Shown here: piece after piece, positions 8,485 to 23,590 of the stretch | Numbering within the stretch: position 1 is the first letter of the stretch | Layout of the letters: each line of letters opens with the position of its first letter | IMG/VR virus record: IMGVR_UViG_3300025694_000038 | Location: 1-23,590 of that record | Reading direction: 5' to 3' (one strand) | DNA length: 23,590 nt | From: a virus | The notes under the pieces: model-generated | The model's input: only the letters and a program-made list of their open reading frames with translations | Told to the model about the DNA's origin: nothing | Database searches by the model: none | Made by a program: the position numbers and the translations under genes

Positions 8485-11400
8485 TTATTTATCCTGTAAT
8501 TTTTGTTCAAGTGCATCGACCTTACCAGAGAGTTCTTTAATTGCCTCTACAAGCAGAGGAACAACCTTATGGTAATCAACTGCAAGGTATCCATTGTCTC
8601 TTGTTGTAACTGCTTCTGGGAGAACTTTTTCAATCTCTTGTGCAATCAATCCAACATCATTTCCCGACTTATTAGACTTATCATTCCAATCAAATGTATT
8701 ACCACTGATTGAAATGACTTTTGATAGAGGATCATGGATTGGAGTAATATTATCCTTTAATCTTTCATCGGAGGACCAGAATGCTGTAATATCGTCAGTT
8801 ACACTCAAAATACCAGTAATTGTGGTATTTGTTTGAATTGCAACAAGTGATCCTACAATAGAACTTATTTTAAAATCACCAGATGAAGTATCAATAGTAT
8901 TATCATCAGTCTGGGCAATTTGAATATTGCCAAATGTTGCACCTGCTGCTACTATAGTTGAAAAAGTAGTGTTTCCAGTTACATCAAAATCTCCTGTAAT
9001 GTTTGTATTGCCACCAACAAAAAGATTTTTAGCAATACTAACACCACCATCAATCACAACAGAACCATTTCCAATACCGGTACTATTTGTAGTATTAAGT
9101 ATTCTTAATTTACCAATAAGTGCTAGTGTATTTTTAATTCTTACTTCACCACCAAAGGTAACAGGTCCATCAAACTGTGAAAGAATTTGACGTGAATCTC
9201 CACCTTCAACAACAATTCTTTCCTTAACAGTAATTTCGTCAAAGATTGCACTCAATCTTGCGGGATCTTCTCCAGTAACTGTCGGAATTGGAGTATCAAA
9301 TGAAGTTTCCTCACCAGTCGAAGAAGATTTCTTGGTATTACCAATATAGAAGTCACCTCTGTTGTTCATACCAGTATAAACAACAATACCAGCAGATCTT
9401 TCTTGAGATTGTGTTAAGAACTCTTCTTTTTCTGTCAGAGTTCTTGTTTGAACTTGTGGAAGACCAGTTGAATAGTTACCTGGACCATATCCAAGATACT
9501 CAAACGTATGTCCCGATGCACGAATAATTGATGGTCTGCGGAACTCAACAGGAATTACATTAATTTTTTTGACTAATGAAGTATCGGAATGTATTCCAAC
9601 ATTTGATGAGAAAACACCACGAAGAACGGTCAGTTTATCTGAACCCGTAATCGATGTTGATGCGACTCTCATAATCTCATCATCAATTTGAATATAAGAT
9701 CCTATTGGCAATCTTTCAGTAAGTCCAACACCAGCAGATACTCCAGATTTTGGATGGGAAAGAGGAATTAAAGTAGTATTGATTCCTATAGTATTTCCAC
9801 CATTATTGATAACGAAAGTATCTCCACTATAGAAGGTATTTTGCCTACCTGCAAGATTTTCTGAACTTGAATCTGATACACCTGAATTAGATGAAAAATT
9901 ATGTTTTAATAGAAATGCTGGACTTGTTAGTGCTGTAGTAGTTTCTGCAGTAAATGTATTCAAATTTACTTTAGATTTTACGAGATAATCCCCAAGATTA
10001 TTACTACTTGCATCAATTACTCTAAACTTATTACCAGAAATCAATCCATGTGCAGATGAACACGTAAAGGTTGTAATACCACTTAGGAATGTAGAAGAAC
10101 TTACTGAAATTGAAGGTCCACTGGAAAGAAGAATGCTTCCTTGGAAAGTAGAGGGATCACCAGAAGTTTTAGCAATTGCAATTTTATTTGCACCTGGAAC
10201 ATTAGTAATTCTGTAATATGCATCAGAAATTGTTGCAATACCAGTAATCTGAACTACATCCCCAACATTTGTTGAGATACCAGAATTTGATACCGTAACA
10301 GAACCATCCTGATTTCCACCTATTGAAGCATTGTCAAAGAAAAGTGTATCTGAATTAGAATATCCGGATCCAGGTGCTTGAATATGGAAACTATTAATAG
10401 TATTACCAGATACGACAACTTGTGCAGTGGCACCATTCCAAGTTGAATATGTATTTTCATTGTAAAGTTTTACATTATAATATGTCCCATTAGTTCTTGT
10501 TCCTGATCCTGCACTAGTAAGTGTCGCAGTAGAAATACCGGCAAATTTATGATTTCTAGTAAATGTTATAGTTGAAATACCACCACTATCTGGTGAAACA
10601 GAATCTACAATAAGACCGCCACCAAGTTTTGTCATGAAAGAATCTGCAGATTCTCTGGTGATACTTCCTTTTAAATCACTTGTATTAACATCACCAATTG
10701 GAAAAGAAAGTGCTCTTGACTTAGTTGATCCTGGATTATCATTTACATTGTCTCTATCAGTTTGAGGATATAAATTAGTAACATTTTGACCATACTCCAA
10801 TTCTGTAAATTCTGCAGAAATTTTATTGTCTGCTTTGAGTGCATATATGTGATAAACACCATCTTGTTGATTTTCAACATATTCATTAATTACTTCATTA
10901 CGATAAACATAGAAGTTACTCTGCAAATCATTTCTTTGAAATCTTGGAAGACTTAGATTTCTGGTGCTTGTGTTGTTATTGAATAATCCAGGATTTCCAG
11001 TTGTATTTGAATATGTAAATGACATATTGTCTGCGCTTACTGTTGCAACAGTAAATGTTCCATTATATCCACTAGTCGCAGAACCAACAGTGTTATTAGT
11101 ATCTGTTACATTAGTGATAATAATTTGATCCCCAACATCAAGATTATGTTGAAGTTCTGTAATTACAGTTGAAGTATTTGTGCTATGAGAACATGCCGAA
11201 ATAAATCTTGGATTTCTATTATATTCAAAATCATTTAAACCAATTGTTGATAAAGTAAAGTCTGTATTTTCCCTGACACCGGTTGTGCTGGATTCTTGAA
11301 TAATAAATCCAGATTCTGGTGTTTTTGCATTTATAAGTTCTTTTGGAATAACAACTCTGAACTTATAAATCTTTTCATCCAAACTTCTATTGTCTGGTGC

Positions 11401-13766: not shown

Positions 13767-13774
13767 TATTTATC
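13767..13774 (-). promoter_or_regulatory. T4-type late promoter (GATAAATA)
   Basis: The minus strand reads GAGATAAATAAAATA, close to the late consensus TATAAATA. It overlaps the end of the 102-aa gene and lies 33 bp before the ATG of the 1749-aa tail gene. Confidence 0.6.
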
Positions 13775-15166: not shown

Positions 15167-16246
15167 TCAAATCATTGCGTCTACGGCAGAAATTACGTCT
15201 GCATTTGAGGTTTTTCTTTGAGTTTGTTTTGATTTAACGTTATTCGATCCCCAGTTTTGCAACTCTTTTTCCATCTTCTTTTCTTTTACCTTATTGAGAT
15301 TTGATCTATTAACAGCAGCATCTCTTTGAGTTCGGAGAGATGTGATTTCTGACGATAATGTTGAAATAGAATTTGCAATAGCAACACATTTATTTGCACC
15401 AGCAGTTCCCGTCAGTGATGTATTAGTCGCATATGGTGCAACACCAACACCAGCATAGGCACTAAATGGACCTACGTTTCTTGGACCAATATGATTTGAA
15501 GATGTTGATGATACATTTTGACCTGATCCTACTGTAGGGGAGGTTTCAAAATTTGTAAGATATTCTTTACTGCCATCTCCTCCCCCTCCAACATTATAAT
15601 CATCTGCACTCACTTCTGTAGTATTATCACTAGATACAGTTTTTCCATTATCTCGAATATTTTCATGTCCAAATCCAGAGTAAGAAGAGGTTAAAGTTAC
15701 AATACTGGTTGGATCAAATGGATTTTCTGCACCATAATCTAAATTTGGACCTGCCATTTTTTTATAGATCTCAAGTGCATCTCGATCTTCAATAAGAGTA
15801 TAATTTCCAACATTTTCTGTAGTGGCACCGACACCTGTACTTGCTATTACTCCTCCCGTAGTAGTTGCAGTATAAACAATACCTGACCAACAATTACGTT
15901 CGAGTGCTTCTGCAGATAAGGTTACTATTTCTTGTTTTTTTGCATTAATTTCGGCATTATAAGAAATAATTTGATCATCAAATTCTTTACAGAATTCTTG
16001 AAGTGTTTCGGCATCTTCTTTTATTTGATTCTCAGCCTTTCCTACAACACTATCATCAAAATAAAGATCTTCTGCTTTTTCTTCTTTTACAGTCTTTGTA
16101 TATGTTCCGTCAGCATTTTCTGTAATAGTTATTGAGGAGACAATTCCAACTGCTTTCACATCAGATGATGGTTCAAATGCATCATCTAGTTGCTTTTGAT
16201 CTTTCTCAAAGACTTCTCTTGCTCTATTCCTTAATGATTCATCCAT
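15167..16246 (-). CDS. Virion structural protein with coiled coils, 359 aa
   Basis: The start at 16246 gives MDESLRNRAREVFEKDQKQL, with GGAG eight bases upstream; the in-frame TTG at 16252 is less likely. N-terminal and C-terminal helical parts (KEFDDQIISYNAEINAKKQE at about 89-108; SISTLSSEITSLRTQRDAAV near 290-310) flank a Gly/Ser/Thr-rich middle (ATTTGGVIASTGVGATTENV; GGGGDGSKEY), as in structural tail proteins. It follows the S74 tail protein with almost no gap, so it probably belongs to the same spike or fibre. No database family recognised. Confidence 0.7.
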   Translation of the reverse strand: MDESLRNRAREVFEKDQKQLDDAFEPSSDVKAVGIVSSITITENADGTYTKTVKEEKAEDLYFDDSVVGKAENQIKEDAETLQEFCKEFDDQIISYNAEINAKKQEIVTLSAEALERNCWSGIVYTATTTGGVIASTGVGATTENVGNYTLIEDRDALEIYKKMAGPNLDYGAENPFDPTSIVTLTSSYSGFGHENIRDNGKTVSSDNTTEVSADDYNVGGGGDGSKEYLTNFETSPTVGSGQNVSSTSSNHIGPRNVGPFSAYAGVGVAPYATNTSLTGTAGANKCVAIANSISTLSSEITSLRTQRDAAVNRSNLNKVKEKKMEKELQNWGSNNVKSKQTQRKTSNADVISAVDAMI

Positions 16247-16248
16247 CT

Positions 16249-17064
16249 TCAATTCTCCAATTCAGATACTCGTTGTTTCAATTCTTCAATTTGTTTTTGT
16301 TGTTCTTTCATCCCATCAATCAAATGAGCAACTAAATTTTCATAAAGAACTCTTTTATAAATTCGTCCCTTTTCTTTTCCATCTTTGACACTATTTACCA
16401 TCGTTTTATAAACGACTTCTGGCACAACTTCCTCAACTTCTTGTGCAATCAATCCAACCATATGTGGATATTTTCCGGCAAGATCTGGAACAATTGTTTC
16501 ATCCCAGTCAAAGGTCACTGGATTCAACTTCATAATCTTATCCAGACCATTTGTCAATGGTTCTATATTCTTCTTGAGTCTTATATCGGATGTATGTGGT
16601 CCAGTTGAAACAAATGAACCATTATACATCCAAAATCCATTTAGATTTCCAAATGGACTATTTTGAAAAATGCTTGCTCCATTACTCTTAATAATAGGTG
16701 CTGTAGCTCCCCAATCTGGAGTAACCGAAGATTTGAGACCATTTAATTCGGAAAAAATGGCACTATAATCAACAGTCAATGGTCCAATTGAAACATCAGT
16801 TCCAAGTCTCACATCTGTTCCTAATGTATTCCATACACCAGTATGAACATCAAGACCAATAGAATTGAAACTTAATGGTGATGTTAATGATGGTCCTGCT
16901 ACAAGTGCAGCACTAAAAGGAACTGTTAATGCACCTTGTCCAAAGTGTCCCTTATGTGCCGCAATTGATCCCGGTTCCCAAAAACCTTTTGGTATATTTA
17001 ATGCACTTCCTAATATAGGATGGATTACATCTACAGTTCCACTATCTAAACTTTGAAAAGCCAT
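16249..17064 (-). CDS. Tail protein with C-terminal Peptidase_S74 chaperone, 271 aa
   Basis: A short N-terminal structural part (MAFQSLDSGTVDVIHPILGS, to about residue 155) is followed by a complete intramolecular chaperone: S159-D-I-R-L-K164 with the Ser-Lys dyad, MVGLIAQEVEEVVPEVVYKT and a final coiled coil EQQKQIEELKQRVSELEN. Such proteins trimerise through the chaperone and then cleave before the serine, leaving about 158 residues in the virion. It follows the beta-helix needle-like gene with a TAATG overlap, so it may cap or extend that spike. The chaperone is related to that of the 1749-aa protein but far from identical. Confidence 0.88.
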   Translation of the reverse strand: MAFQSLDSGTVDVIHPILGSALNIPKGFWEPGSIAAHKGHFGQGALTVPFSAALVAGPSLTSPLSFNSIGLDVHTGVWNTLGTDVRLGTDVSIGPLTVDYSAIFSELNGLKSSVTPDWGATAPIIKSNGASIFQNSPFGNLNGFWMYNGSFVSTGPHTSDIRLKKNIEPLTNGLDKIMKLNPVTFDWDETIVPDLAGKYPHMVGLIAQEVEEVVPEVVYKTMVNSVKDGKEKGRIYKRVLYENLVAHLIDGMKEQQKQIEELKQRVSELEN

Positions 17065-17666
17065 TATTTACAAGTCTCCGCAATATCTGTAATTAAGTCG
17101 GCAACGGGACCAGGAATAAATGTGCCTAGTATTCCTGAAAGTGGCGAACCCTGAATAACATCGGCATATAATAACCTCAAATAACCCTTTGCATTTAGAG
17201 TTATACTATCGGCAGATGTTACACAAACCTTACCACCGGCAAGATTGAGTTGTTCATCTGCTTTCATTGTAATGTGATCATTTGCCTTGATTAGGATTGA
17301 TCCGTCACTCTTATCACCAACAGTTTCAATGTATATATTTTTTGCAATTAGTTTGATATTTCCGTTTGCGGCATCTAATACAATATCACCATTTTCACAT
17401 ACAATTGACTTGGCAACATTCTCTTTTTCGTCTTCATTTCTTCCCTGAGCAAGATTAGTTCCTAAAATTTCATGAGAACAACCAGGAACAATTTGCGTAT
17501 TACTTCCATTGAGACTATGTATCTGACAATATCCACTTTTCAGCATCTCAATTTTATTGGTGTCAATGTCTTCACCAACTTTATCTTGCTCACCAACCGG
17601 ACCCATAATAATGGTGCCAAATGGGTTATCTGAAACAATAACTTCTGGGTTTGTTGGTTTTACCAT
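17064..17666 (-). CDS. Beta-helix needle-like protein (gp5 C-terminal-like), 200 aa
   Basis: An N-terminal part with NPFGTIIMGPVG and SGYCQIHSLNGSNTQIVPG is followed from about residue 90 by short strands in register: GDIVLDAANGNIKLIAKNIY, GSILIKANDHITMKADEQLN and ADSITLNAKGYLRLLYADVI. This repeating hydrophobic/polar pattern is the signature of the triple-stranded beta-helix in T4 gp5 and VgrG needles. It probably forms the membrane-puncturing needle beneath the hub. The start directly follows the stop of the hydrolase gene, matching the T4 domain order of OB-fold, hydrolase, helix. Confidence 0.75.
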   Translation of the reverse strand: MVKPTNPEVIVSDNPFGTIIMGPVGEQDKVGEDIDTNKIEMLKSGYCQIHSLNGSNTQIVPGCSHEILGTNLAQGRNEDEKENVAKSIVCENGDIVLDAANGNIKLIAKNIYIETVGDKSDGSILIKANDHITMKADEQLNLAGGKVCVTSADSITLNAKGYLRLLYADVIQGSPLSGILGTFIPGPVADLITDIAETCK

Positions 17667-20204
17667 TTAACTCACACAATCAACAACACGGACAAGATCT
17701 TTTCTTGTAAATCCTCTTTCTACTAACACACTTCTTCCTCTTAATGTATCAATTGGTCCATCTAGTGATAGTTGGACATCATCTGCAGACTCATCAAAGT
17801 CTGAAACACGAGTGAATGATAGTATTGGTTCAATAATAGCTCCTTCACCTGTTGGACTATTTATTTCAATATCTGGATACCCTGGAAGACCACATGCATT
17901 TGTTCCGATTTGGATACTGACAATTTGTCCAAACTCGGTCATTTGAACAGTTGCCTCAAGTCCTGGAATATCTGGAGTAATTATAATATTATCATTTGTA
18001 GTATATCCTATACCAGTATCCAAAATTCTAAACCCTTCTAAACAAACAACAAAATCATTTCCACTCGGTTGACCAGTATCTGATGGAGGATCAAATTCAG
18101 TTCTACCGTCTGTTGGTGGTGCAACTGGTGTTGTTGTAAGTATTATATCAATAACTTCTCCACCAGTTCCAGTTCCAGTTCCGGTTCCACCAGTTCCAGT
18201 TCCGGTTCCACCAGTTCCAGTTCCAGTTCCGGTTCCACCAGTTCCAGTTCCGGTTCCACCAGATTCACTAATTACTGAATATCCACTAGTAAATGTATCT
18301 TCGCAACCATCAACAAAAGACACAAATGGAGGTCTTGTATATCCAGAACCACCATTTATAAGATTTACACCGATTGTTCTTCCAATATTATCTACAACAG
18401 CTTCGGCAACTGCACCTACTCCTCCACCACCAAAGATTTCAATGCTTGGTGGTCCACATTTATAAGCACTTGGGTCACATTTAGTGATGTCTGACGGAAT
18501 AGTTCCTGCCGAATCTCCAAGAGGTTTTCCAAAGATTTCAATTCCATCAATAAACTTTGTCGCATCTTCAATCAGATCTCCTGCTGATGGTGGACTTAAG
18601 AATCCTGCAAAGTCATCAATCTGAGATTGAGATGGTCCACCCCAAGGACTTGCCTTAAACTTTTTGATCTCGGGACAATTTGGTTTTGCACATAAGAATG
18701 CTTCAAATCCTAAAATGTAGTCAAGTGCCTGGAATACGTTACCAATAATTTTTGTAACTCCACCAAGAACATCATTAATCTGATCTAAGATTGGGCCAAC
18801 TGCTTGATCAACGATTGCTGCAACATTATTTACAAGTGCATTAGTAAATTGTTGTGCGGCACAGAAAGGAACATTAACAATTTTTCCAATCATTTCAAAT
18901 AAGAAGTCCCCAACAAGATTTGCAAGATTAGAAATAACATCTTTAAATGCACAGAAAATATTGTCTATTACAGTTTGAATAATAGTATTTTTAATTGATT
19001 TTAATACTGTAGGAAGAATCATATGAATAAGATCTTCAATACCTGCTCTAATTTTATCAATTAAGAAATCTCGTAGTCGATTAACAAGAATTTTGAGAAC
19101 TGCACCAATAATTTGAGATGTGCTTCTAATAAGTGCCGTAAGATTTTGTATCTTATTAATAGTTCCGTTTACATATAAATCGGCATATTTTTTGATTCCT
19201 TTTAGGACTGTGAAAAACTTTTGTAGTTGTGTATTGATTTTAGACATCTCTGATGTCCCACAAGGATCTGGCAGATCTCTTTCTGTCTGCATTCTTGTGA
19301 TTGCATCTCTAAATGCAACACTATTAAAAAGTTTTTCACATGCAGGAGTATTTTTAAAAGTCATTCCTAACGGAGTTTCTCTTGCCACGCACCCGTCAGC
19401 ATCTGCCTGTTCTTGCAAATCATTACCAAATTTTGCTGCAAATAATGCATCTGTTTCGGCAGATAACATTTTATATTTTTCTTTCTCTTCATCCGTCCAA
19501 AGATCGGAAGATTTTTCATTTAATTCAGCAATCTGTTTTCTATTTGCTTCTATTTCTGCATCAAGTCGTTCATTATCAAGTTGAAAATATGGATTATTAA
19601 ATTCCAAATCCTTGTCCGGGACCGGCACAGGGTTATCACTTGTGGTGGTTGCTTTTGTTGCAGGATCTTTTGCTGTCTCAACAGGTGCAGAAGATTGAGT
19701 TGATCCTGGACTTTCTGTTGTTTTTACAGTTGCATTAGGTATCTGTAAATTACTATTTCCAGCAGTATTAAAATAATGATTTCCAAATTTAGTTACGTTT
19801 ATATTTTGAGATGGGTCATTAAATGCTGAACCAGTTCTAAAACCAGTCGATGCCATCGCACTGTTGATCTCATTCGGAGGTGTATTTCTTGCTTCTAGTC
19901 TACCTCTTAAGTCTGACCGATTTTCAGCAATAGCAATTGCTTTTTCTGCATTATCAAGTTCTACCTGCGAAAAATTATTATTAATTGATCCATCACTAAC
20001 AACTTGAAATTGATTTTTTCCATAAATGACTCCGGTTATACTGGCATCATTTGCTAGAAAGGTCCCCTTTCCGACAGCACCACTTTGTATAAGTCCAGCA
20101 CGATTTAATATAATTCTAGCAACAAGAGCCTGTCCTATTAAATCTTCACCTCTAGATTCTGCGGCAACTGTTCTTATAAAAAGTTCTCTTTCAGTATATG
20201 CCAT
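17667..20204 (-). CDS. Baseplate protein with N-terminal SleB-like cell-wall hydrolase domain, 845 aa
   Basis: Residues 1-145 match the SleB/Hydrolase_2 family: RTVAAESRGEDLIGQALVAR with likely catalytic E16, ILNR (32-35) and TGVIYGKNQFQVV (57-69). A Thr/Pro/Ser linker and a charged coiled coil (about 210-270) follow. Then comes a long amphipathic helical part (about 330-500; DKIRAGIEDLIHMILPTVLK, GPILDQINDVLGGVTKIIGN), beta segments, a Gly-Thr repeat (about 648-682) and a beta-rich C-terminus. SleB enzymes cut peptidoglycan glycan strands, so it likely supplies local wall digestion during infection, replacing the lysozyme of T4 gp5. An AAGGAGG site and a late promoter precede it. Confidence 0.82.
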   Translation of the reverse strand: MAYTERELFIRTVAAESRGEDLIGQALVARIILNRAGLIQSGAVGKGTFLANDASITGVIYGKNQFQVVSDGSINNNFSQVELDNAEKAIAIAENRSDLRGRLEARNTPPNEINSAMASTGFRTGSAFNDPSQNINVTKFGNHYFNTAGNSNLQIPNATVKTTESPGSTQSSAPVETAKDPATKATTTSDNPVPVPDKDLEFNNPYFQLDNERLDAEIEANRKQIAELNEKSSDLWTDEEKEKYKMLSAETDALFAAKFGNDLQEQADADGCVARETPLGMTFKNTPACEKLFNSVAFRDAITRMQTERDLPDPCGTSEMSKINTQLQKFFTVLKGIKKYADLYVNGTINKIQNLTALIRSTSQIIGAVLKILVNRLRDFLIDKIRAGIEDLIHMILPTVLKSIKNTIIQTVIDNIFCAFKDVISNLANLVGDFLFEMIGKIVNVPFCAAQQFTNALVNNVAAIVDQAVGPILDQINDVLGGVTKIIGNVFQALDYILGFEAFLCAKPNCPEIKKFKASPWGGPSQSQIDDFAGFLSPPSAGDLIEDATKFIDGIEIFGKPLGDSAGTIPSDITKCDPSAYKCGPPSIEIFGGGGVGAVAEAVVDNIGRTIGVNLINGGSGYTRPPFVSFVDGCEDTFTSGYSVISESGGTGTGTGGTGTGTGTGGTGTGTGGTGTGTGTGGEVIDIILTTTPVAPPTDGRTEFDPPSDTGQPSGNDFVVCLEGFRILDTGIGYTTNDNIIITPDIPGLEATVQMTEFGQIVSIQIGTNACGLPGYPDIEINSPTGEGAIIEPILSFTRVSDFDESADDVQLSLDGPIDTLRGRSVLVERGFTRKDLVRVVDCVS
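18160..18261. repeat. In-frame tandem repeat encoding Gly-Thr
   Basis: Alternating 27-bp and 21-bp units beginning CCACCAGTTCCAG form two exact 48-bp copies plus a final CCACCA. They encode GGTGTGTGT and GGTGTGT in the 845-aa protein. The copy number is probably variable, since such perfect repeats change by slippage. It would be a flexible linker. Confidence 0.9.
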
Positions 20205-20229
20205 CTATAATTTTGCCTCCTTATCCTGA

Positions 20230-20237
20230 TATTTATT
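20230..20237 (-). promoter_or_regulatory. T4-type late promoter (AATAAATA)
   Basis: The minus strand reads GTGAATAAATATCAGG, close to the late consensus. It lies 26 bp before the 845-aa gene and is followed by its AAGGAGG ribosome binding site. Confidence 0.6.
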
Positions 20238-20743
20238 CACTTTTTGGCACCATCAAAAAAGTTTTTATCCAAATCAAACTTTGTCATCATCGATCTCGGA
20301 ACACTTGGAGATAAGATATGAGCATTGAATGGAGGATTTCCAAGAGTATACCTGCTTACAGATTGTCCTAATGTTGTTCCATTCGTCGATTTTTTAATTT
20401 TACCAGGGTCATGATTAGATAAAACTTGTGTAATCACCGGAATCTGACAATCTTCATCCATAAAAAATCCAATTACCCATTCTCCACCCCAAATTCCCGA
20501 ACTTTGATAGTTACGATTTCCATGTGTTGTTGGTTTTGCAACAATTGCCCAAGGAAGATCCTTATCAAGAAGTTCATATGCATCATCATTACTTCTCATC
20601 GGATGCATTCCGGGTATTCTAACTTTTACCCTATCTCCATGCTGATCATGCCATTCAACTCCATAGTGTTGATTACTTTCAGGAGGAACTTGTCCTAAAA
20701 ACCATTTATTATTACCAAAATCATATCCAGTATTATTTGCCAT
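20237..20743 (-). CDS. gp5: gp5-like baseplate OB-fold protein, 168 aa
   Basis: Matches only the N-terminal OB-fold of T4 gp5/VgrG: WFLGQVPPESNQHYGVEWHD (14-33), RVKVRIPGMHP (38-48), DLPWAIVAKPTT (62-73) and WVIGFFMDEDCQIPVITQVL (89-108). In T4 this domain sits on the gp27 hub and leads into lysozyme and needle domains in one chain. Here the protein stops after a short tail (SVPRSMMTKFDLDKNFFDGAKK spans its end), and the next two genes carry a hydrolase and a beta-helix. It begins two bases after the gp27-like gene's stop. The symbol refers to the T4 homologue of this domain. Confidence 0.82.
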   Translation of the reverse strand: MANNTGYDFGNNKWFLGQVPPESNQHYGVEWHDQHGDRVKVRIPGMHPMRSNDDAYELLDKDLPWAIVAKPTTHGNRNYQSSGIWGGEWVIGFFMDEDCQIPVITQVLSNHDPGKIKKSTNGTTLGQSVSRYTLGNPPFNAHILSPSVPRSMMTKFDLDKNFFDGAKK

Positions 20744-20745
20744 TT

Positions 20746-22038
20746 CTAGTTTTTACCTGTATATAGACCGTATGTATCACGAACAAGAGTCATTGCACTA
20801 AATGATCTTTGGGGATCATAATGATGACATAAATCTAAAATCATATAATTACCACTCTCTACAGGATCAACTGAACCTTGCTCCTTTTCTCCCGGAGTAA
20901 TAATTTCTAAATTACACTTAACAATATCACCTGCCTTAAGATTTGGATTGCAAGGAACTTGCATTTTTACCATCTGTGTAAACAATAAATTATATCTCAT
21001 TTGAACAGAACCTTGATAACTATTCACATCACCTTCATCACTTTCTTCTACCTTTGAGGAAAGACAACCAACATCTTTTATACTGAATAGTGTTCTAGTA
21101 TGCTTTTTATCTTGTGGTGTCGGTGCTTCATTTTTACCTAGTGATTTTTTTAAAGGTCCTATATTAAATTGTTTTTCTTCTAATAGGAAAGTTTTGGGAT
21201 TAAATACACACCTACGATTTGAATACACACCAGATTTTAGTGCATTGATTAGATTTTGATTTTTAATAATACTAAAAGATAAAATTTTAAAATCATTTGA
21301 ATTATCACTCACACTACTTCTATTGAAATCATTGCGGAAATAAATTGCGACCGGTTTTTGCTCAATCAAAGTATCAATTGATTTAAAATAGTGTCCGTCA
21401 CGAGTCTCATAAAAGAAAAATCCAGGATTTCCATTTTCTGGGGCAGATTTTGATGCTAACATACAAATCACATCAAATGGTGATTTATTATTGCCTATAA
21501 ACGGATACTTATTCGAAGTTTTCTCCGCATAAAATTTGTCAATATCCAATAAATCACGTACAATCAATTCAACCGATTGTGTATTATTGGTTGACTTCGA
21601 ATAATTTTTCTTCACAAAGGTTTCTTGATTTTTAATCGCAGATTTAGAAACAAGACTTAGAATGACAGACTCACGATTTGAATCTTGATCTGGATTGATG
21701 GAACCATTTACATATAATGGAGTTGTTGAAAAATCTAATGTTCCAAGTGCCGATGATATTTTAAATCTAATTTCTTCAGATCCATCACCAACAATTGGAA
21801 GTGTATTATATAATGTTCCGGGTCTTTCTTGTTTATCATACTCCTTATCATAGGTCGCAACATTTTGATCTACCTCAACTAATCCAGTATCCACATATGA
21901 TACCGTGGCGGTAATATTAGGAGATAATAAACTTTCATAATAATCAAAACTCGTAACTTTAGATTGAAGTGGAAAGGATCTTCCTTTCTTACTAATTTCA
22001 AATTTTTGATATTTTGATGCGACTGCTGGGTTTGCCAT
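20746..22038 (-). CDS. gp27: gp27-like baseplate hub protein, 430 aa
   Basis: MANPAVASKYQKFEISKKGR begins a protein with the hub hallmarks: an early SFDYYESLLSPNITATVSYV strand region, then SPFDVICMLASKSAPENGNP and FFFYETRDGHYFKSIDTLI (about 186-226), and a C-terminal barrel-like KAGDIVKCNLEIITPGEKEQ and YMILDLCHHYDPQRSFSAMT. This architecture is that of T4 gp27/phage gpD hub proteins, which form the trimeric ring at the end of the tail tube and carry gp5. The neighbouring OB-fold gene supports it. AAGGAG lies rather far (16 bases) from the ATG; a four-codon ATG frame ending in TAA sits between. Confidence 0.75.
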   Translation of the reverse strand: MANPAVASKYQKFEISKKGRSFPLQSKVTSFDYYESLLSPNITATVSYVDTGLVEVDQNVATYDKEYDKQERPGTLYNTLPIVGDGSEEIRFKISSALGTLDFSTTPLYVNGSINPDQDSNRESVILSLVSKSAIKNQETFVKKNYSKSTNNTQSVELIVRDLLDIDKFYAEKTSNKYPFIGNNKSPFDVICMLASKSAPENGNPGFFFYETRDGHYFKSIDTLIEQKPVAIYFRNDFNRSSVSDNSNDFKILSFSIIKNQNLINALKSGVYSNRRCVFNPKTFLLEEKQFNIGPLKKSLGKNEAPTPQDKKHTRTLFSIKDVGCLSSKVEESDEGDVNSYQGSVQMRYNLLFTQMVKMQVPCNPNLKAGDIVKCNLEIITPGEKEQGSVDPVESGNYMILDLCHHYDPQRSFSAMTLVRDTYGLYTGKN

Positions 22039-22067: not shown

Positions 22068-23590
22068 TTATACCGGTATTGGTTGATAATTATATACTGT
22101 TCTTTTATTATTTATTGGTTGTATATAAACATTTATAATTTCTTCTTCATCTTCGTACATTGGTTGATTAATTGCTGCCATTTTTCTTTCGTCTGGTCTT
22201 GCTTGTGTAAACATATTAATAGATCCTCCTTCACCTGTTGCTACTGTAGATTTCATTTTATCATAATATTTTTTAGCAAGACCTCTAATTTCTGGTCCAC
22301 CTGACCACTCTGGCGCACCTGATTTTAAATTCCATAAATCCCATTTTGTCTGTGGGTCACGAGAGTTCGGACCATATGGAGGATTCTCTTCCCTAGCAAT
22401 TTCTGCGTGAGTATAAACTCTCCCCAATTTTATATCACTTTTTTTCCAGTCCCATGCAATTGCCAATCTTGCAATTTCTTCTGCCATAGATTGTATTTGC
22501 ACTGATTTTATTGGATATTTTCCATGATCATCTTTACTCGGCCATCTACCTTGTGATGTTTTGTCACCAAGAGCAGCTATACTCAGTGCAACACCTTCAT
22601 CATTTCTACCCCAAGTATGCCCGTTTCTAAATGTGTCATAAGATGCTTTTCTATGAGCTTTACCATCACCAGTAAAGATAGTATGGTATGTGCCATAAGT
22701 ACTCGTATAGGTTCCAGCAGTCCAATGTAGGAAGATTTTTCCATTTTTATATCTAGTTCCTGCTTCAAATGGTTTACCTGATCCACCAGGACTAGCTGCC
22801 TGAGATCTCGGGTGATGATCATCAAGCCTGACACTTGGATCATCACTGTTTATTGGGGTTTCTCCGGAAGATTCTGGCAATTCTTCAGTTTCTCCATTAG
22901 GACCAAATGCGGGACCATAATATTCTACATTTTTTTTGTTCTTTGTAGAAGTAAATTGTCTTTCAGTAAATATTCCAGTTTCTCTATTTAATACTCCTTC
23001 CTTACCATCCTTTTTAGCATAAACTATTTTTTCACCACCAATTGCACCTCTAACAGAATTGATAGCAGGTTTTAACATTTTAATGAGCCCACCAAAAGGA
23101 CCCATTTTTTCTGCAATTTTGTCAATCAATCCATCCTTTCCAGTTATATCATTTAAACCATCATCAAATTTTTTCTTATCAACATCAAGTTTACTATCAT
23201 TAAATTCTCCGGTTAGAAATGCCTTAATTAAAGTGAAACCACTTTGAACTGGTTTTAAGAAGTTTGTAATATTATCAATAATTTCTTTTACTTTCTCTAT
23301 AATAGCAGGAAGTGCATTGACTATTATGCCAGTTAAGAGCAATCCACCAAATTCTAATATTTTATCAAAAATACTACCACCAGATGAACCAGATGAAGAT
23401 CCTGTTGATTCTTTGACTTTATTCAGTGAAGATTTTATTGGAGATTCTAATTTTTGTTCTTCATTTTTTAACTTTTTCTTACTTATTTGTCTAACAGATG
23501 TTTTTTCTTTTTTTGAAATTATTTTTTTCTGATCCTTATTATCTCTAACAAGAATACTGTGAATATTATTGAGATTAAGTTTTACTTTTT
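22068..23590 (-). CDS. Tail-associated protein with N-acetylmuramoyl-L-alanine amidase domain (5' end outside window)
   Basis: The frame is open to the window edge: 506 codons are visible and the true start lies beyond 23590. First comes a basic, Ser/Gly-rich region (KVKLNLNNIHSILVRDNKDQ; SSSGSSGGS), then hydrophobic helices (LLLTGIIVNALPAIIEKVKE) and a helical segment. Next is a complete Amidase_2 domain with FLHWTAG (visible H288), GTYHTIF, GHTWGRNDEGVALSIAALGD, THAEIA (H394) and DPQTKWDLW (D411): the two His and the Asp fit zinc ligands. The enzyme would cut between muramic acid and the stem peptide. Its place before the hub genes suggests a virion-borne, tail-tip wall hydrolase or tape/hub component. 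A TTG inside the frame is not a likely start. Confidence 0.85.
   Translation of the reverse strand, partial: KVKLNLNNIHSILVRDNKDQKKIISKKEKTSVRQISKKKLKNEEQKLESPIKSSLNKVKESTGSSSGSSGGSIFDKILEFGGLLLTGIIVNALPAIIEKVKEIIDNITNFLKPVQSGFTLIKAFLTGEFNDSKLDVDKKKFDDGLNDITGKDGLIDKIAEKMGPFGGLIKMLKPAINSVRGAIGGEKIVYAKKDGKEGVLNRETGIFTERQFTSTKNKKNVEYYGPAFGPNGETEELPESSGETPINSDDPSVRLDDHHPRSQAASPGGSGKPFEAGTRYKNGKIFLHWTAGTYTSTYGTYHTIFTGDGKAHRKASYDTFRNGHTWGRNDEGVALSIAALGDKTSQGRWPSKDDHGKYPIKSVQIQSMAEEIARLAIAWDWKKSDIKLGRVYTHAEIAREENPPYGPNSRDPQTKWDLWNLKSGAPEWSGGPEIRGLAKKYYDKMKSTVATGEGGSINMFTQARPDERKMAAINQPMYEDEEEIINVYIQPINNKRTVYNYQPIPV
22109..22116 (-). promoter_or_regulatory. Possible late promoter (AATAAATA) for the hub genes
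   Basis: The minus strand reads CCAATAAATAATAAAAG inside the end of the amidase gene, about 70 bp ahead of the gp27-like ATG. It fits the late motif, but within coding sequence of this composition such matches occur by chance. Confidence 0.3.

Follow-up and report, generated by a model that had tools for sequence, protein, structure and literature searches.

The membrane-puncturing spike of contractile tails, gp5, is a textbook protein usually treated as one chain. For phage T4, the domain limits given in the pertinent part of the source are 1-129 for the OB-fold, 174-339 for the lysozyme and 389-575 for the beta-helix (PMC4576200). The corresponding part of a report on the baseplate of Anabaena phage A-1(L), with gp15 as hub and gp25 as spike, attributes the attack on host cells to hub domains of endoglucanase and peptidase type, and describes the spike as an OB plus a beta-strand domain with no enzyme domain (PMC10966104). 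Homologues of gp5 and of the T4-GC 15 family are listed among S-SM1 virion proteins in the relevant section of that study (PMC3037559). In the portion of the S-CREM2 work that deals with the virion proteome, two 'endolysin' open reading frames (ORFs; 73 and 71 unique peptides) directly precede ORFs named baseplate central spike and central spike (PMC10665884). Here we analyse the gp5 region of a viral record of 23,590 bases (IMG/VR IMGVR_UViG_3300025694_000038), a genome fragment of 23.6 kb referred to as the window.

Four ORFs on the minus strand form the core of the locus. They encode an OB-fold protein of 168 amino acids (aa; 20237-20743), an 845-aa protein (17667-20204), a 200-aa protein (17064-17666) and a 271-aa protein (16249-17064), in this order and at these positions, as an earlier sequence-only reading of the DNA had listed them. 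That reading had interpreted the first three as a T4 gp5 cut into three genes, with a SleB-like hydrolase in place of the lysozyme. We consider it probable that the locus instead represents the hub and spike genes of a T4-like cyanophage whose gp5 was split once, with an exchangeable hydrolase slot at the 5' end of the second gene. This reading builds on what can be observed by comparing sequences, namely the domains, the gene order, a single split clade, separate reading frames, presence, absence and replacement of the cassette, and a conserved joint with promoter-like and ribosome-binding elements.

The split gp5 gene and its phylogeny

Directly upstream of the OB gene, the window encodes a gp27-type hub protein of 430 aa (20746-22038, minus strand) that matches the tail protein family PHROG 350; its P-SSM2 homologue belongs to T4-GC 15, the gp27-like family in P-SSM2 and Syn33. 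The OB gene matches PHROG 1922 at positions 18-138 (E 3.5e-22) as well as PHROG 430 and 694, and a profile of 27 OB sequences retrieved solved gp5 spikes from PDB (9f4a, E 1.7e-5; T4, E 0.008). In the relative L049, the OB gene passes the Pfam cut-off for Gp5_OB (27.9 vs 25 bits). The window therefore holds the N-terminal OB domain of a T4-type gp5, and its existence as a separate gene, as first proposed from the letters alone, is upheld by these matches. Small ORFs lie between gp27-like and gp5 genes in S-PRM1, S-8S53, S-CAM9 and DSL-LC03 (L066, L068, L072 and L073); in three of these four records the ORF is annotated CP12, a metabolic gene inside the hub block.

The remainder of gp5 is found on the second gene. 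The 845-aa protein also matches PHROG 1922, best at positions 212-575, so that OB and the C-terminal segment, which we call G5C, match the same family yet lie on two ORFs. G5C (residues ~291-845, 17670-19334, about two thirds of the protein) comprises a predicted helical part, a GSGY-type stretch and conserved cysteines. A G5C profile built from relatives matches the C-terminal part of single-chain gp5s of Sf-CH8, S-T4, S-PRM1, S-8S53, P-SSM2 and S-SKS1 (E 3e-138 to 9e-57), and gives weak or short-stretch matches only with gp5 of Syn33, S-M1 and Moby; a search of PDB with it returned nothing significant (best E 0.49). Among the 13 cysteines of the 845-aa protein, C418, C448, C576 and C583 are invariant across 33 aligned sequences. 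In the basal split loci L052 (8477-11674) and L053 (8502-11843), the second-gene proteins carry a phosphatidylethanolamine-binding (PBP) domain (PF01161) near the C-terminus.

In the window, OB and the second gene each have an ORF of their own, and the same is true of the relatives L006-L054 wherever a piece carries both. In all 29 split loci examined, the frame of the second gene has a stop upstream of its own start, which in 24 of them is a TAG or TAA 3-9 nucleotides (nt) before that start. The window carries three ORFs with such an in-frame stop before the 845-aa gene, rather than a T4-type gp5 in one chain. Joining of OB and SleB through a frameshift, and a frameshift artefact as the origin of the split, were considered and rejected, as the frame is closed upstream in 29/29 loci and the ORFs are separate in 29 tree rows.

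In a tree of gp27 (43 rows, rooted on Syn33 and S-M1, with a long-branch warning among the fused rows), 29 split and 12 fused rows fall on opposite sides of one branch (support 100/99), and the split/fused state changes once in 100% of 200 bootstrap trees. The tree leaves aside near-duplicate contigs, L004 with a broken gp27, and L047, L019 and L022, which have no usable gp27. L049, whose second gene is off the contig, and L051, cut inside OB, are unlabelled; an earlier labelling with 31 split rows also gave one change. 'Fused' here means that OB lies inside a long gp5 ORF; L063 has no G5C match, and L003 and L067 (Syn33 and S-M1) have weak ones. From the 56 'phages' records that match the gp5 segment, 12 isolate or single-cell records were opened, and all 12 have OB and the segment on one ORF. 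As phiM12 and Moby, which are not cyanophages, also have OB at the beginning of a long gp5, the fusion of OB and segment is probably ancestral. On this reconstruction, the event specific to the clade is one fission between OB and the gp5 segment.

Searches of 13 records, among them a relative of 207.6 kb and an 89-kb contig of the window's phage type, turned up no further gp5 OB domain, the window's own record being a fragment of 23.6 kb. With the Gp5_OB family, a single match was obtained in each of 11 of these records, in no case above cut-off, and G010 and G011 were missed; the sole match in S-T4 (E 0.02) lies outside gp5. In the 207.6-kb relative (L041), the second gp5 gene and photosynthesis genes (Photo_RC) have broken frames, perhaps sequencing errors.

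The hydrolase slot and the joint

The N-terminus of the 845-aa protein (residues 1-165, 19710-20204) proved SleB-like, as had been read from its motifs. Pfam Hydrolase_2 matches above its cut-off of 27 both with the whole protein (31.5 bits, E 2.9e-7) and with the first 165 residues alone (36.4 bits, E 8.8e-9), and a profile of 13 SleB sequences retrieved the spore cortex-lytic enzyme SleB (4f55) from PDB at 2.2e-4. Hydrolase_2 is present at E ≤ 0.01 in 12 of the 13 aligned sequences. Ala15-Glu16, Glu20, Gly24, Asn34-Arg35 and His143 are invariant in all 13, and Glu16 aligns with a glutamate of SleB 4f55 that we take to be the catalytic residue. Residues 7-191 also match PHROG 2588 at positions 587-772. 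Pfam gave no lysozyme match, and hence no T4 lysozyme-type domain, in the 845-aa protein.

The DNA of a close relative, L018, places the borders of cassette plus linker. Window and L018 can be aligned at 88.9% identity up to nt 18 of the second gene; the next 801 nt of the window (19386-20186) have no counterpart in L018, after which identity resumes at 90.9%. The gp5 segment is thus preceded by 290 residues in the window vs 21 in L018, whose second-gene protein has 582 aa and no enzyme, and no SleB match was found anywhere in the records of L018 (62 kb) or L017 (75 kb). Cassettes are also replaced. L020 and L031 carry different SleB types between flanks that are 97.4% and 98.1% identical, and L042 and L043 carry Phage_lysozyme2 vs SleB-B between flanks of 95.1% and 91.9% identity.

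The states seen at the slot are SleB-A, SleB-B (linked to SleB-A by alignment), Phage_lysozyme2 (L042 and L047; E 3.9e-17), an endolysin-type phrog_5867 cassette with no Pfam enzyme match (L048 and L050; E 3.9e-45), an RlpA-like DPBB_1 cassette (L092; E 4.6e-13), one unassigned type (L016) and none. A census of 33 split loci, compiled by hand and covering loci that are not independent events, counted no cassette in 15, SleB-A in seven (one partial), SleB-B in five, lysozyme2 and phrog_5867 in two each, and DPBB and the unassigned type in one each; L022, L040, L049 and L051, which are cut off, and the diverged and unclear L083 were excluded. Mapped on the gp27 tree, the cassette state changes 10 times over 29 rows.

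The sequence-only reading had SleB take the place of the lysozyme, which the single-chain gp5s that we scanned do not support. Pfam found no enzyme in six of them, only an OB domain, a chance-level Baculo_PEP_C match or nothing, and the SleB profile found nothing significant in the gp5s of isolates (best E 0.048). Because these scanned chains show no enzyme, SleB was probably gained by the split clade rather than swapped for a lysozyme. The label 'tail lysozyme' on cyanophage gp5 may be inherited rather than observed. SleB domains 52-56% identical to that of the window occur upstream of gp27, in proteins of Syn33 (918 aa) and S-M1 (936 aa). In Syn33 the domain follows an Amidase_2 match that lies below cut-off, in a region homologous to a 506-aa ORF at the upstream end of the window, and the phrog_5867 family profile also includes the stretch matched by this ORF type. 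Together, these homologies suggest that upstream tail-lysin genes supplied the cassettes from their C-terminal ends, although the data are compatible with transfer in either direction.

Between OB and the second gene lies a compact joint (20205-20237, minus strand). In the window, it consists of a late-promoter-like octamer, AATAAATA, at 20230-20237, the first base of which lies within the OB stop codon, a Shine-Dalgarno sequence (AAGGAGG, 20216-20222) and the in-frame stop TAG (20205-20207) just before the ATG. A Shine-Dalgarno-like stretch is present in most split loci. The octamer NATAAATA is the late-promoter sequence given for S-PM2 in the section of the source concerned with it (PMC2984593). 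Of 28 split loci, 23 have it at -29 to -33 relative to the second start, and it is present in the window as well; within 50 nt upstream of the other genes it was found for gp27 in 0/26, OB in 0/27, the needle in 0/27, S74 in 0/23 and the next gene in 1/18, in loci that are related and not independent. As the octamer is missing in the basal loci L052-L054 and in L036 and L037, it may have been acquired after the fission. ATAAATA copies at 8486-8492 and 13767-13773 precede the ORFs for 746 and 1749 aa by 19-39 nt, and all seven copies in the window are on the minus strand.

When L042 and L043 are compared, a 38-nt island round the joint matches, flanked by an OB tail and a cassette that do not. 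The OB tail of L011 is of the PAPEPPIVAPAFAPVNP type, as in the distant L042, L045, L047 and L048. We infer from this that the joint is a recombination joint across which modules were exchanged on both sides; no pairing of OB tail type with cassette type was seen by eye. A scan of IMG/VR for the joint pattern (27 stretches) yielded L092 with its further cassette type and many unrelated genes too, so the joint motif alone is not specific to the hub-spike block.

The probable needle, flanking genes and lineage

The 200-aa protein is, by profile and model, a probable beta-helix needle. DUF2345 was found at E ≤ 0.01 in 23 of 32 needle sequences. The predicted structure has repeated strands. In a Foldseek search of PDB with it, the seven best matches (E 0.01-0.35) all come from gp5, VgrG, baseplate or contractile-injection entries, and unrelated folds begin at rank 8. 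In BFVD, small proteins from S-T4, S-PRM1 and S-SCSM1 take ranks 1, 2 and 4, and rank 3 is a Gp5_OB protein; by length, the first two match the genes behind gp5 in S-T4 and S-PRM1. A profile search of PDB with the needle gave no significant match, the best being a type VI secretion protein (E 0.29).

A separate beta-helix gene also adjoins the single-chain gp5 in S-T4, Sf-CH8, P-SSM2, S-PRM1, S-8S53 and S-SKS1, and the same arrangement is present in S-CAM9, DSL-LC03 and AG-345-E08. Blastp did not find the needle gene in AG-345-D19, S-B43 and P-TIM68, nor was it found in L062-L064. As the needle adjoins single-chain gp5s elsewhere, only the cut between OB and the 845-aa gene is specific to the split clade; the needle gene was most likely separate before gp5 was split in this clade.

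The next gene encodes a 271-aa protein with a Peptidase_S74 chaperone domain at residues 159-219 (E 1.9e-18, 67 bits vs a cut-off of 22), in agreement with the sequence-only reading. It is followed by a 361-aa protein with no assigned function (15167-16252, minus strand), homologues of which stand in the same place in relatives. The order on the minus strand is thus 506-aa ORF, hub, OB, 845-aa, 200-aa, S74 and 361-aa.

The 506-aa ORF (22068-23588, minus strand), a tail-lysin-like protein, is cut by the contig border at its 5' end. In its C-terminal part it shows homology to the amidase-like region that precedes the SleB domain in Syn33, and Pfam gave no amidase match in the ORF itself. The near-identical contig L006 differs from the window in about the first 730 nt of this ORF (window 22860-23590, the N-terminal part) and, beyond this stretch, in one place over ~13 kb. 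Either the upstream lysin gene has exchanged a module or the contig end is an assembly chimera. This ORF and the preceding gene in L006 (L006:2913-6137) have a common N-terminal part and different ends, amidase-like by homology vs an M23 peptidase, and resemble paralogous carriers of different hydrolases.

The transfer RNA region of the window has cyanophage matches at the DNA level, the best with S-SKS1 (89.8% over 9% of the 9.6 kb queried). Photo_RC (psbA/psbD-type) genes occur in two of 12 relatives' records, both split (L017 and L041), the other records being mostly fragments. Given the matches of the transfer RNA region and the Photo_RC genes of relatives, this lineage of ocean viruses is cyanophage-like.

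Proposed spike, alternatives and known systems

In the proposed spike, the OB rings encoded by the first gene would, by homology, seat on the gp27-like hub. The second gene would contribute the C-terminal segment of cyanophage gp5 and, ahead of it, a peptidoglycan-hydrolase cassette that can be exchanged, and the separate downstream gene would probably supply the beta-helix needle as the tip, as beside many single-chain cyanophage gp5s. Homology and gene order make it plausible that a single trimeric device is built from OB, cassette protein and needle. SleB may cut peptidoglycan during entry as the T4 gp5 lysozyme does, and the octamer may act as a late promoter. The split could be tolerated because the parts join non-covalently, and enzymes could then be exchanged at the N-terminus that it frees on the second half. 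More tentatively, and with rather less than even confidence, we suggest that the fission made the spike a modular socket, its second half having a late promoter, ribosome-binding site and start codon of its own. Through a joint of ~30 nt, complete peptidoglycan hydrolases from four or more families would be exchanged between phages, so that the wall-cutting enzyme changes without altering hub, OB or needle, possibly matching host peptidoglycan. If true, this would show modular evolution of the cell-wall-breaking part of a contractile tail, and the question of which enzyme serves which host wall would become testable.

The 845-aa protein could also work outside the spike, as a free-standing tail lysin or a tape-measure-like pilot protein elsewhere in the tail, with SleB acting there. 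Its helical middle weakly matches several tape-measure PHROGs (E 1.3e-6 and weaker), other hydrolases (M23, amidase-like) are encoded by upstream genes, and the cassette is missing in many relatives. We nevertheless regard this as unlikely, given that the 12 single-chain records that we opened all encode the gp5 segment and OB in a common ORF and that the order hub, OB, segment, needle is kept in the split loci carrying all four. What stands of the T4 gp5 interpretation in the sequence-only reading is that the OB, the SleB-like and the probable beta-helix module each have their own gene, arranged as in T4 and adjoining a gp27-like hub; the three-way cut and the replacement of lysozyme by SleB do not. 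Although the domain order is that of T4 gp5, and the gp5s of Syn33 and S-M1 have an N-terminal OB and a repetitive C-terminus resembling a beta-helix by eye, no enzyme domain was found in the scanned single-chain gp5s, the needle is separate outside the split clade too, and cassettes are missing from L052-L054 at the base of the clade and from many further split loci. A direct T4-type origin of this kind is therefore very improbable. Least credible, to the point of being negligible, is an assembly or sequencing artefact behind the split or the domain jump. The records are metagenomic fragments and L041 has broken frames, but the split is seen in 29 tree rows across a deep clade, most loci have a Shine-Dalgarno-like stretch, the stops before the start differ in codon, and five other contigs agree with the window across this region.

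Several observations count against the hub-spike reading that we prefer. In the window, Gp5_OB matches the OB gene under its curated cut-off (E 1.1e-3), and DUF2345 scores under the Pfam cut-off in the needle. The needle model is weak (predicted local distance difference test, pLDDT, 67; predicted template modelling score, pTM, 0.45), no Foldseek match in PDB reaches E 0.001, and VIA-align mixes spikes and unrelated folds at similar Z. Scored as whole proteins, those with SleB-B do not reach the Hydrolase_2 cut-off, and in L020 Pfam finds no match to this family. Judging from the 15/33 split loci that carry no cassette, the enzyme is dispensable at the slot. Across the whole window ATAAATA is not enriched (7 vs 9.1 expected); the evidence for the octamer is its position upstream of the second gene across relatives, not a window-wide count. 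We found no proteomics or structure for the split clade, and the S-CREM2 authors, in the part of their report that discusses the endolysins, suggest that these may be packed in the capsid and not in the tail (PMC10665884). An AlphaFold model of the 845-aa protein, built from 33 rows, was poor (pLDDT 49), gave no useful PDB match in a fold search and was dropped as evidence.

Open-access literature yielded no description of a split cyanophage gp5 or of enzyme exchange there, a weak negative. Going by gene order alone, the S-CREM2 block may be the same as that of the window. As A-1(L) has hub enzymes and S-CREM2 has endolysins beside spike ORFs in the cited parts of both reports, enzymes at the hub-spike place of a cyanobacterial phage tail are, by analogy, expected, and the polypeptide that carries them varies. 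A-1(L) resembles the window, so far as the cited account of its baseplate goes, in placing cell-wall enzymes within the hub-spike complex of a cyanobacterial myophage, although there they are domains of the hub protein and not of a split gp5. With Syn33 and S-M1, the window has in common an OB-containing gp5 and a closely similar SleB domain, in Syn33 behind an amidase-like part; in these phages, in contrast, SleB resides in the upstream protein and gp5 is one long chain (859 and 842 aa). The single-chain cyanophage gp5s of P-SSM2, S-T4, Sf-CH8 and S-PRM1 (PHROG 1922) are homologous in OB, C-terminal segment and needle and have similar neighbours, but join OB and segment in one chain, with no recognisable enzyme in those scanned. 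T4 gp5 combines the same modules in the same order, starting with an OB that adjoins the gp27-type hub and continuing with a hydrolase for the cell wall and a needle, the last of these probable in the window. Whereas T4 uses one gene and T4 lysozyme, the window uses three genes and Hydrolase_2/SleB, and its lineage has an extra segment of ~555 aa and an enzyme that is optional and exchanged between relatives.

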